A DNA stretch of 64,000 nucleotides from an uncultured Candidatus Binatia bacterium. Lineage in GTDB: Bacteria; Desulfobacterota; Binatia; Bin18. Numbering within the stretch: position 1 is the stretch's first letter; every line of letters starts with the position of its first letter. The notes under the pieces are model-generated. The model was not told the DNA's origin, did not search any database, and saw nothing but the letters and a program-made list of their open reading frames with translations. Location: assembly GCA_958296235.1 (NCBI GenBank), contig OY282457.1, positions 1 to 64,000 on the forward strand, in the 5' to 3' direction. Position numbers and translations under genes: made by a program. Below, in pieces: positions 35,153-60,852 of the stretch.

Positions 35153-36133
35153 TCATGACTCTGCCTTGGGGCGTTTCTGATGGGCAAACTCAATAACCGC
35201 TCGCGCCAGAGCAACCGACTTGTCCATAGCGCTCATGACGGTATCGGTGACAATAACAGTCATGCCCATTTTTTCCAGGCGTTCGCGTGGTGTTGGATCG
35301 TGTTCGATGTCTTGCCGGTCAAGGACAAAGGTATCCACAAAGTCGTGATACAGCTTGGCGACCCCAACCGACGAGACTTCAATCCCCAAGCCGGCAAGCA
35401 TGCGGTCGGCTGGCCCTTTGATGGGCTTTCCTGCGACCAGGGGACTGATTGCGACTACTGGAGCGGAGGTTGCTCGCAGGGCCTCGCGCACGCCCGGTAA
35501 GGAAAGAATGGGGCCAATACTGACAATGGGGTTGCTCGGCGGGAGAACAATCAGCTCGGCGCTGTAAAGGGCTTCGACGACACCAGGCGCGGCCTGGGCC
35601 GTTTCCATGCCGCTGAATGCAACTTTCGAGACCTGCCCCTCACTGCGCTGTTTCACGAAATATTCCTGAAAGGGCAGAGCGCCTGCCTCGGTATGCACAA
35701 CGGTCCGAACGCGTTCATTACTCATGGGTAGTACGGTGGCCTTAATGCCCCACTGCCGGGCAATGGCGGCGGTCGCCTGGCTGAGCGTCCGCCCCTGGCG
35801 CAGTGCTTGGGTCCGAAACAGATGCGTTGCCAGATCAGCGTCGCCTAAGCCAAACCAGGTATCGGTATAATAGCGCCCGAGCGCCGCAAGGCAGCGATGG
35901 GTTTCCCGAGGTAGGCCCCAGCCTTTCTCAGAGTCAACGGCATTGGCCAGGGTATAGGTCACTGTATCCAGGTCAGGAGAAACTGAGAGACCAAAGAATT
36001 CTTCGTCATCGCCGGTATTGACGATCACGCTCAGATTTGTCTCCGGCACAACCCGCACAACACCGCGTAGAAAGCGCGCAGCGCCCACACCGCCGGCGAG
36101 GGCGGTGATGCGTGAGGAAGTCAGGCTAGACAC
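35153..36133 (-). CDS. cofD: 2-phospho-L-lactate (or phosphoenolpyruvate) transferase CofD
   Basis: Transfers the phospholactyl/PEP group from the GDP donor to Fo. The 326 residues begin ITALAGGVGAARFLRGV, the CofD signature, then VIVNTGDDEEFFGLSVSPD (metal and Fo site), LGDADLATHLFRT and LIVLPPSNPIVSIGPILSL. It overlaps cofE or its alternate start by four bases. The guanylyl donor enzyme CofC is not encoded in the window. Confidence 0.93.
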   Translation of the reverse strand: MSSLTSSRITALAGGVGAARFLRGVVRVVPETNLSVIVNTGDDEEFFGLSVSPDLDTVTYTLANAVDSEKGWGLPRETHRCLAALGRYYTDTWFGLGDADLATHLFRTQALRQGRTLSQATAAIARQWGIKATVLPMSNERVRTVVHTEAGALPFQEYFVKQRSEGQVSKVAFSGMETAQAAPGVVEALYSAELIVLPPSNPIVSIGPILSLPGVREALRATSAPVVAISPLVAGKPIKGPADRMLAGLGIEVSSVGVAKLYHDFVDTFVLDRQDIEHDPTPRERLEKMGMTVIVTDTVMSAMDKSVALARAVIEFAHQKRPKAES

Positions 36134-58401: not shown

Positions 58402-58737
58402 TCAGACGTCACCCCGATACGGGCGGGTCACCACCCGGGCTCCGTTATGAATAAAGAAGGAGCGGACGATATTCTCCAAATCGTGTCCAACGCGTGGGTT
58501 CGGGGTTTGGGTTTTAACGAATTTCTTGAGACGGCGAATAAAATCGACCTTCTCCCCTCTGTCTGCGAGGGCATCGGAAATAATCGTATCCGGGTCCTTT
58601 TCCTCAGACCGGCAGAAATCGGCCAATGTCTGAAGGCGGCTGTCCCACTCCTCATCGCTGAGATTGTAATAGCGATTGACGTTCTCGATCCACTTTTGGA
58701 CGCTGGGATAAGATTGCAAGTCGTTCATGGCTGCCAT
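58402..58737 (-). CDS. Small integrase SAM-like domain protein, copy B
   Basis: A 111-residue protein: WIENVNRYYNLSDEEWDSR, LADFCRSEEKDPDTIISDAL, then LENIVRSFFIHNGARVV. The helical pattern with DFC...DPDxII and VRSFxIHNG resembles the N-terminal SAM-like core-binding domain of tyrosine recombinases. There is no catalytic domain (no R...HxxR...Y). It lies after a nitroreductase gene on the same strand and is a paralogue of the protein at 59668-60012. Confidence 0.65.
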   Translation of the reverse strand: MAAMNDLQSYPSVQKWIENVNRYYNLSDEEWDSRLQTLADFCRSEEKDPDTIISDALADRGEKVDFIRRLKKFVKTQTPNPRVGHDLENIVRSFFIHNGARVVTRPYRGDV

Positions 58738-58765
58738 GTTTTTTCTCTGTTCGTCTGCCTGCAGC

Positions 58766-58792
58766 CAGCCCCTCCCGCTGGGAGAGGGGCTG
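58766..58792. repeat. REP-like inverted repeat
   Basis: CAGCCCCTCCC and its near inverse GGGAGAGGGGCTG around a short loop, between nitroreductase B and its SAM-like partner. Related to the hairpin near 52680. Confidence 0.65.
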
Positions 58793-58806
58793 GGGGGCTT
58801 GTGCCC

Positions 58807-59640
58807 CTACAGCGGAAAACCCAACATGCGGGCCAGATGCTTGAGTTCTTCAAAACGTCCGGGCTTGGGCATTGCTTCCTGGAGCAGTTTTTCTTCTTCC
58901 AATTTTTCGACCACCTCGGCATCACGCGCAAACGGCTTGCCATAGGCGCCGTCATAATAGAGCGTTTCAAAGGGCAGGCGGGGTCGTTGGCCGCCCCCAT
59001 CCGGGGATTCCGCGGGATAGCCAACTAACTGACACCAGACCGGGACCCAGCCCTCAGGAGCCTGCAGGACGGCGTGGAGGTCTGGAGTTTTCTCGGCCGA
59101 GGCAGCCATGTGCAGGCAGGTGCCGAGTCCCTCGTTGACGGCAGCCAGGACGGCGACCGCGCACGCTCCAACCGTCTCCTGCCGGGCAACCGCTTCTGCC
59201 GCCTCACGCGGGAGGCCGTGGATCAGCGAGTGAATGGCCGGCATGCCTTCGGGTGCGGTCTCGCCTTTGACAATGGCCGCATCAATCGTCTCATGCGTCC
59301 AGCCGTAGAAGGTCGGCAGCGCGCCCAGGTCTACCAGGTCATGAACCCGCGTCCGAAAAGTGTCTGCGGTAGAACCCTCCACATCGGCAAACCAGTAGAT
59401 CCAGACCGGGGCGTTGACGTGCGCCCCCTGATAGTTGTCACACGCCAGCAGGGTTTCCCGGTCTTCTTTTGACAGCTTGTCGCGTTCAACAACAATAGCG
59501 CGCCAGGGCTGGAGGTTGCCCGGACAGGTAGTCAAACGGACCACTTCGAGAATCCGCTGTATCTTCTCCTTTTCGACCTGCTCCCAGGGCTTGAAAATCC
59601 GAATGCTGCGTCGTGAACCAACCACTTCGAGAAAATCCAT
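58807..59640 (-). CDS. Nitroreductase family protein, copy B
   Basis: FMN-binding oxidoreductase of 277 residues: VVGSRRSIRIFKPWEQVEKE (FMN phosphate site), LEVVRLTTCPGNLQPWRAIV, then AAVNEGLGTCLHMAASAE and PVWCQLVGYPAES. Closely parallels the protein at 60064-60852 (copy A). F420 or NAD(P)H may be the electron donor; not shown by sequence. It has an adjacent small SAM-like gene downstream, as in copy A. Confidence 0.83.
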   Translation of the reverse strand: MDFLEVVGSRRSIRIFKPWEQVEKEKIQRILEVVRLTTCPGNLQPWRAIVVERDKLSKEDRETLLACDNYQGAHVNAPVWIYWFADVEGSTADTFRTRVHDLVDLGALPTFYGWTHETIDAAIVKGETAPEGMPAIHSLIHGLPREAAEAVARQETVGACAVAVLAAVNEGLGTCLHMAASAEKTPDLHAVLQAPEGWVPVWCQLVGYPAESPDGGGQRPRLPFETLYYDGAYGKPFARDAEVVEKLEEEKLLQEAMPKPGRFEELKHLARMLGFPL

Positions 59641-59667
59641 CGTCTCCTCCGTATTCCGTGGGCCAGC

Positions 59668-60012
59668 TTATGACAGTGGACTCGTTTGTAACAGGACGCC
59701 GTTATGGATCAAAAAGCTTCGGATATAATTCCCCATTTGCCGCTTTTCGCCCGTACCCCCTCCGATGCGAGATTCAAACTCGGTGATCCTGTCCGCGTAA
59801 AAACGCCGACCCTTGGCCCGAATTTTTTTCCCGCCCTCAACCTCGCGCAAGCACTCAGCAATGATCTGATCCGGCTCTTTGTCTACCAGGGCGCAGAAAT
59901 CCTGTAAGACCGCCACGCGTTGCAATCCCTCGTCGCGGGACACACCGGACTGGTCTTCCAGGCCCTTCAGCCAGGCCTGAACCGTTTTGGCGTTCTCTAT
60001 ATCTGGCGTCAT
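59668..60012 (-). CDS. Small integrase SAM-like domain protein, copy A
   Basis: A 114-residue paralogue of 58402-58737: VQAWLKGLEDQSGVSRDE, VLQDFCALVDKEPDQIIAE, RQMGNYIRSFLIHNGVLL. It keeps the DFC...EPDQII and IRSFLIHNG features. It is in the same frame as nitroreductase A, separated by two TAA codons in a 12-bp tandem repeat (60028-60075). Purine-rich repeat DNA just upstream may supply its ribosome-binding site. Confidence 0.65.
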   Translation of the reverse strand: MTPDIENAKTVQAWLKGLEDQSGVSRDEGLQRVAVLQDFCALVDKEPDQIIAECLREVEGGKKIRAKGRRFYADRITEFESRIGGGTGEKRQMGNYIRSFLIHNGVLLQTSPLS

Positions 60013-60027
60013 CGTGTGCGTGTCCTT

Positions 60028-60075
60028 CTCTTCTTCCGGCTCTTCTTCCGGTTATTCTTCCGGTTATTCTTCCGG
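60028..60075. repeat. 12-bp tandem repeat, four copies
   Basis: Two CTCTTCTTCCGG units then two TTATTCTTCCGG units. On the minus strand the latter two encode PEE-stop, so the repeat ends nitroreductase A and leads into the next gene in the same frame. Confidence 0.85.
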
Positions 60076-60852
60076 TAAGCCCAGCATCCGGCTCACCGCC
60101 CGGACTTCCTCTTTCCGCCACGAGAAGGGCGCCGGGTCCTGAATCATTTTCTCGGCTCGGAGCCGGGCCGCGCCTTCCTCTGTGCCCCGAAACGGCTGGC
60201 CATATTTCCCCTCATGAAACAGTTCACCCAGCGGGGGACGGGGGCGCTGGCCACCGGCTTCCCAGCTCTCTGCCGGGTAGCCGACAAACTGGACCCACAA
60301 CGAGGTCCAGGAGTCCGGCACCCCAAGCACCTGGCGGGCGGGTTCTTCGGGATAGGTACACAGCATGGTCCCGAGCCCTTCATCGACCGCTGCAAGGAGT
60401 GCCTGCGATATGGCCAGACCCGCTTCACAGCCCGTTACCTTGGCGGATAACACCGCGTCAGAACTGAACGCCTGGACGACCTGGGGGTAGGCGACTTCGT
60501 TGATGAAGGTGTGCGTCCAGCCATGACTGATATTGAGGACGCCCATATCGACTTGCTCTGCTGCTCGGGAGGGCATGTCGCGGGCAAAGGCTTTGAGGTC
60601 GCCCCACCAGTAGATATGGATGGGTGCCATTTCGATCATGCCGGCATTCACCGGCAGCGTCAGCGACGCCAGGTCGGCCTTTGAGAGGCCATCCCGCTCG
60701 ACAACGATGGCCCGCGCGAAGTCGGCGTTCCCGGCTCGGCTCGCCAAGCGCGCCGCCTCAAGAATCGTCTGCACTTTGTCCCGTTCCACCGGTCGCCACG
60801 GCAGGAAGTACCGAATTGAGCGTCTCCGACCAACAACTTCTTTGAATTCCAC
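60064..60852 (-). CDS. Nitroreductase family protein, copy A
   Basis: FMN-dependent oxidoreductase of 262 residues: VVGRRRSIRYFLPWRPVERD at the start, LEAARLASRAGNADFARAIV, VDEGLGTMLCTYPEEPARQ and LWVQFVGYPAESWEAGGQ. Sister of copy B; both end in a similar MLG(F/L)P tail. No partner pathway is visible. ATG 60852 is the likely start. Confidence 0.84.
   Translation of the reverse strand: MEFKEVVGRRRSIRYFLPWRPVERDKVQTILEAARLASRAGNADFARAIVVERDGLSKADLASLTLPVNAGMIEMAPIHIYWWGDLKAFARDMPSRAAEQVDMGVLNISHGWTHTFINEVAYPQVVQAFSSDAVLSAKVTGCEAGLAISQALLAAVDEGLGTMLCTYPEEPARQVLGVPDSWTSLWVQFVGYPAESWEAGGQRPRPPLGELFHEGKYGQPFRGTEEGAARLRAEKMIQDPAPFSWRKEEVRAVSRMLGLPEE

Follow-up and report, generated by a model that had tools for sequence, protein, structure and literature searches.

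The four genes at positions 58402-60852 of the window (the whole stretch of 64,000 nucleotides that was analysed) lie on the minus strand in the transcription order NR1-S1-NR2-S2, and each nitroreductase-family protein (NR) is followed by a small protein (S) (Table 1). NR and S probably form a functional unit, in which an FMN-dependent oxidoreductase of an acyl-CoA catabolic module would work with a dedicated small protein that binds the enzyme and not DNA. S is best read as such an enzyme partner because it accompanies NR across several phyla, usually among genes of fatty-acid and acyl-CoA breakdown. The pairing, co-occurrence and co-divergence of the two proteins, their operon context and their predicted folds are the observations behind this reading, and from them we infer physical binding, the use of FMN, the reaction and the substrate. 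More tentatively, and with the balance somewhat against so strong a form, the solitary domain with the core-binding fold of tyrosine recombinases might have become an obligate subunit that co-evolves with its enzyme, in a class of FMN acyl-CoA oxidoreductases that has had no name so far. Such a two-component enzyme would be new, and it would be present in Binatia, Chloroflexota and Actinomycetota and probably in Acidobacteriota. Searches of the open literature on nitroreductase and acyl-CoA operons, on Binatota/Binatia and on stand-alone core-binding domains turned up no description of the NR-S pair. A family of unannotated small proteins thereby gains a directly testable assignment of function from its genomic setting, and a nitroreductase subfamily of poorly cultured phyla can be given a likely part in the breakdown of acyl-CoA. 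If the reading is true, an accessory fold of DNA recombinases has been put to metabolic use.

The four reading frames are genuine genes under purifying selection, since dN/dS within the genus is low (0.12 for S1, 0.09 for S2, 0.04 for NR1 and 0.05 for NR2) and both pairs are syntenic in its other genomes. On one side, the flanking genes encode a member of the uracil-DNA glycosylase family and a squalene/phytoene synthase; on the other, they encode a protein that matches nothing in Pfam and one of DsbA type. The palindromic repeat in the gap from NR2 to S2 is probably a later insertion of a dispersed element, because the corresponding gap is only 31 nt in two other loci, L061 and L063. A promoter and terminator scan returned sites at chance level only, and the PADLOC models of anti-phage defence gave no match at E 0.01.

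Table 1. Features of the locus, with positions in the window
Feature	Position	Strand	Remarks
NR1, nitroreductase-family (PF00881) protein, 262 aa	60064..60852	-	GTG start; RRSIR motif; conserved C-terminal extension
S1, small helical protein, putative partner, 114 aa	59668..60012	-	51 nt 3' of NR1; family alignment and AlphaFold model
NR2, second nitroreductase-family protein, 277 aa	58807..59640	-	Pfam 52.6 bits; clade differs from that of NR1
S2, second small putative partner, 111 aa	58402..58737	-	29% identity to S1, family alignment; start may be Met at 58728
Short palindromic dispersed repeat	58765..58800	.	Between NR2 and S2; 27-nt core in ~30 copies in the genome

Pairing of the nitroreductase and the small protein

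Searches from S1 and S2 recovered relatives in Binatia, Chloroflexota and Actinomycetota and in MAGs of Acidobacteriota. The family libraries (Pfam, NCBIfam, PHROGs, PADLOC and PDB sequences) gave nothing reliable for S, the top PDB sequence match being dTale2 at E 2e-6, with no stretch that passes on its own. NR was found directly upstream on the same strand in 67 of the 82 distinct S, a figure that is somewhat biased because the search set started from NR-linked S. The other 15 comprise four at contig ends or beside a truncated NR, one chance match and ten true orphans, and S without an adjacent NR was seen in Binatus, in the loci L076, L084 and L099, and among the variants called S'. The gap between NR and S has a median of 11 nt, with four 4-nt overlaps among 39 non-redundant pairs. 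Short gaps with 4-nt overlaps are typical of coupled translation.

Co-occurrence was tested genome by genome, which is less biased than adjacency, although linked members make up most of the profile and the candidates scored in each genome were limited in number: among 148 Binatia genomes, 30 carry both NR and S, none carries S without NR, one carries NR without S and 117 carry neither (Fisher, 1.5e-30, with NR counted above 300 bits and two marginal S matches near E 1e-3, in G423 and G019, set aside). By genus, the Binatia counts are 17/17 versus 0/55 (p 7e-17). Of 301 Chloroflexota genomes, 6 have S, and it is these 6 that have NR; a seventh, weak match to S (G287) lies within a luciferase-like enzyme and was rejected as due to chance. 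The evolutionary distances of NR and S correlate with r 0.887, whereas permutations reach 0.19 at most; part of this correlation comes from the species history that the two proteins have in common. An NR clade that is more divergent, scoring 230-280 bits, occurs without S. The tie of the small proteins to one nitroreductase subgroup, which had been proposed from the letters of the window, is thus borne out by the adjacency, by the overlap in Binatia and by the correlated distances; the small proteins are found mostly with the nitroreductase, and their predicted fold is core-binding-like, so that neither objection foreseen for the original prediction applies.

No NR-S fusion protein was present among the loci examined. 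AlphaFold was also applied to NR1 and S1 joined into one chain by read-through of the intergenic stop of locus L066, using an alignment of 56 rows; the domains are well folded and the pTM of 0.71 is about that of two unattached domains, in a model without the second NR subunit, which may matter. Among the S sequences collected, that of the contig labelled Aequorivita (L079) is all but identical to the S of bacterium UCB2 (L080), and the contig is probably misbinned.

Acyl-CoA genes around the pair

The neighbours of S and NR were clustered over 57 loci and named by Pfam and NCBIfam, and they comprise AMP-forming acyl-CoA ligases (22), SCP2-type thiolases (21), acyl-CoA dehydrogenases (15), CoA-transferase subunits (11 and 10), PaaK-like ligases (11), SDRs (9), CofD (6) and others. 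This acyl-CoA context is new relative to the original prediction, which had not foreseen it. The order acyl-CoA dehydrogenase - ligase - thiolase - NR - S is found in L090 and L094, both of Actinomycetota, and in L089, from a Binatia-type MAG labelled deltaproteobacterium, and ligase - thiolase - NR - S is found in L092 and L101 with no dehydrogenase in view. Binatus genomes split the set into acyl-CoA dehydrogenase - ligase - NR (L216) and acyl-CoA dehydrogenase - thiolase - S (L223, like L216 from genome G028), and S is therefore tied to the same pathway even when it is unlinked from NR. Around the pairs of the window and of its genus, no acyl-CoA genes of these families occur within about 4-5 kb (L061). 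The loci share the acyl-CoA dehydrogenase, ligase and thiolase neighbours with operons of SCP2-type (lipid-transfer) thiolases; however, they include NR and S, and most of them have no DUF35 OB-fold gene in the stretch examined. The CoA-transferases beside NR-S may resemble IpdAB, a likeness that serves as a lead only. An NR2-type cluster also contains, beside its CoA-transferase genes, a gene for a 501-aa protein without a Pfam match (L170:9255-10760).

In the pathway proposed from these neighbours, an acid would be activated by the AMP-forming acyl-CoA ligase, or moved by the CoA-transferase, and the acyl-CoA dehydrogenase would then oxidise the acyl-CoA. NR would act next, most likely through a hydride transfer like that of CLA-ER, at an activated C=C or C=O, and the thiolase would cleave the product. 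S would use its core-binding-like fold as a protein-protein module that binds NR.

The same neighbourhood could be read with S as the partner of the thiolase or of the acyl-CoA ligase and NR as merely a co-inherited member of the pathway, since an orphan S directly follows a thiolase in Binatus (L082, L083, L086, L223) and in L076, and directly follows a ligase in L084 and L099. This reading is unlikely, however, as NR is by far the commonest immediate neighbour of S, even where neither thiolase nor ligase is nearby (the window's genus, L067, L174), and as NR co-occurs with S genome by genome. Furthermore, the divergent NR clade that lacks S stands in like operons, with the order acyl-CoA dehydrogenase - NR - thiolase (- ligase) in L219, L220 and L222, which argues for S going with the type of NR and not with the thiolase.

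Sequence and predicted fold of the small protein

The S proteins are single domains of about 106-130 aa and have no recombinase catalytic domain. The AlphaFold model of S, built with 52 sequences (pLDDT 93.2, pTM 0.88), has five helices, and a beta-hairpin leads from the third to the fourth; the hairpin stretch of S1 is absent from S2. When the model was compared with known structures by VIA-align, the ten best rows were all core-binding domains of tyrosine recombinases (Z 9.1 to 5.0, with the next row at 3.5), among them XerA (5hxy, Z 9.1), the Brujita integrase (5vfz, 8.4) and the lambda integrase (2oxo, about 6). Foldseek alone gave weak matches, with XerA at a probability of 0.69 and a TM of 0.50. 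The predicted fold of S thus appears core-binding-like, as a resemblance of fold only and with Z scores that are moderate for a helical bundle, which agrees with the earlier reading of a recombinase core-binding-like pattern without a catalytic domain. The small-protein motifs quoted in that reading are present as DFC, (D/E)PDxII and (V/I)RSF(F/L)IHNG.

S was not filed as a member of the core-binding family, because the likeness is at the level of the fold, sequence profiles show no link, S is less basic and it has conserved residues of its own. Against the sequence profiles of recombinase core-binding domains, S reached an hhalign probability of 2.4%, with no detectable homology, and 1 of 52 S members matches PF13495, at E 0.053. 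The core of S has a median net charge of +1, compared with +3 in the core-binding domains of related genomes (p 4e-5), a measure of net charge and not of the surface. The most conserved residues are C40, H103, W14, N104, F39, F100, P47, S99 and G105, and to our knowledge C40, W14, S99, F100, H103, N104 and G105 match no recombinase pattern. In the S of L091, both the Cys and the His are replaced, by Ser and Ala, and in that of L157 the His alone is lost. Although the predicted helical fold resembles those of XerA and of the Brujita and lambda integrases, S therefore differs from tyrosine recombinases in its lack of a catalytic domain and of detectable sequence homology, in its lower charge and its own invariant residues, and in a context that is metabolic rather than that of mobile elements. 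The DNA-binding-like role first suggested for the small proteins is not supported by the profile comparison, the charge and the conserved residues.

The same observations bear on the proposal that S is a DNA-binding regulator of its operon, i.e., a core-binding domain that lost its catalytic domain, still binds DNA and controls the transcription of NR and its neighbours. The fold match to DNA-binding domains and a Lys/Arg stretch that is conserved where helix 4 begins (K67 and R69 in S1) are consistent with this proposal, and regulators are commonly co-transcribed with their targets. However, it is rather improbable, given the low net charge and the lack of detectable sequence kinship to recombinases, the position of S as the downstream and often overlapping gene, and the closeness with which S tracks the phylogeny of NR. 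In addition, the strongest conservation in S falls on the W / C / HNG set and not on a basic face. A dedicated enzyme partner is the role that we continue to favour for S.

A link of S to present-day phages was considered and is unsupported: the phage and plasmid collections contained no convincing S, and a Foldseek search of S against viral models gave nothing significant. A second, shorter S-like family (S'), which ends in VxSFLIHNGVNV(F/Y)G, was observed in L091 (6069-6419), L102, L103, L157 and L167, both near NR-S-CofD clusters and alone.

The nitroreductases and the origin of the two pairs

NR1 and NR2 match PF00881 with 48.9 and 52.6 bits, respectively, against a gathering cut-off of 23.5. 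Neither reaches the cut-off of any of the NCBIfam nitroreductase equivalogs BluB, NfsA, NfsB and the FbiB C-terminal domain, the best scores being 37.7 bits for BluB (cut-off 150) and 27.9 for FbiB (cut-off 249.55). The fold of the L066 protein, which is near-identical to NR1, matches FMN nitroreductases with Z 17-21 in VIA-align, and among the best matches is 4qlx (Z 20.0), which we take to be CLA-ER, a fatty-acid enone reductase of nitroreductase fold. The RRSxR motif at the N-terminus is nearly invariant in the alignment of the subfamily. NR thus shares the fold, the motif and a Pfam score above the cut-off with PF00881 enzymes such as NfsB, YdfN and CLA-ER, and differs from them in a conserved C-terminal extension of ~60 residues and in its linkage to S and to acyl-CoA genes. 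By analogy with these enzymes, NR would be an FMN oxidoreductase that acts on an intermediate of an acyl-CoA pathway. Two different NR genes followed by a single S (NR-NR-S) were observed in L080, L088, L098 and L159, a layout that is suggestive of an NR heterodimer.

A role in F420 chemistry, in which NR would reduce dehydro-F420 or use F420 and S would be an accessory, was weighed because CofD adjoins or lies near NR-S in L091/L165, L101, L167 and L172 and adjoins S in L093, CofH/MqnC-like genes lie near NR-S in other loci, and NR2 has a match to the FbiB C-terminal domain (E 1.8e-6) that is weak and far under the cut-off. However, CofD occurs in 143 of the 148 Binatia genomes, with or without NR-S, so that F420 does not track the pair, and F420 genes are missing from the vicinity of most NR-S loci, which makes such a role quite improbable. 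The window itself contains a CofD gene at 35192-36109. In genome G432, the CofD frame beside NR-S is broken in two (L165:8437-9138), and another, full-length CofD is present.

The window contains two anciently diverged NR-S units that were brought side by side, as judged from sequence comparison. S1 and S2 share 29% identity over 112 aa (E 8e-16), and NR1 and NR2 share 41% (E 7e-61). The closest relative of NR1-S1 is a single pair in G009, of another genus of the same family (NR 87%, S 60%), whereas NR2-S2 is closest to the single pairs of G062 and G017 (about 63% for NR and about 54% for S). In a maximum-likelihood tree, which is a quick tree with some long branches, NR1 and NR2 fall in different clades, and their union in one clade was rejected (AU test, p 7e-68). 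The separate clades and the single pairs among the nearest relatives are the grounds for two old lineages having been brought together. A recent tandem duplication was accordingly rejected, the copies not being sisters and each clade occurring singly in other genera. Of the original prediction of tandem copies of one gene pair, the head-to-tail arrangement and the likeness in kind hold; the duplication falls, as the pairs are old paralogues. That the cassettes were simply duplicated in tandem with S as an unrelated passenger, as two like pairs lying head to tail might suggest, can hardly be right in view of the single pairs elsewhere, the AU test and the co-occurrence statistics of NR and S. 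A third NR of the subfamily is encoded in the genome of the window (G000:C1:4425289-4426071; L215:7287-8072); it has no adjacent S, and its neighbours are a chloride-channel-like gene on one side and a DnaG-like gene on the other.
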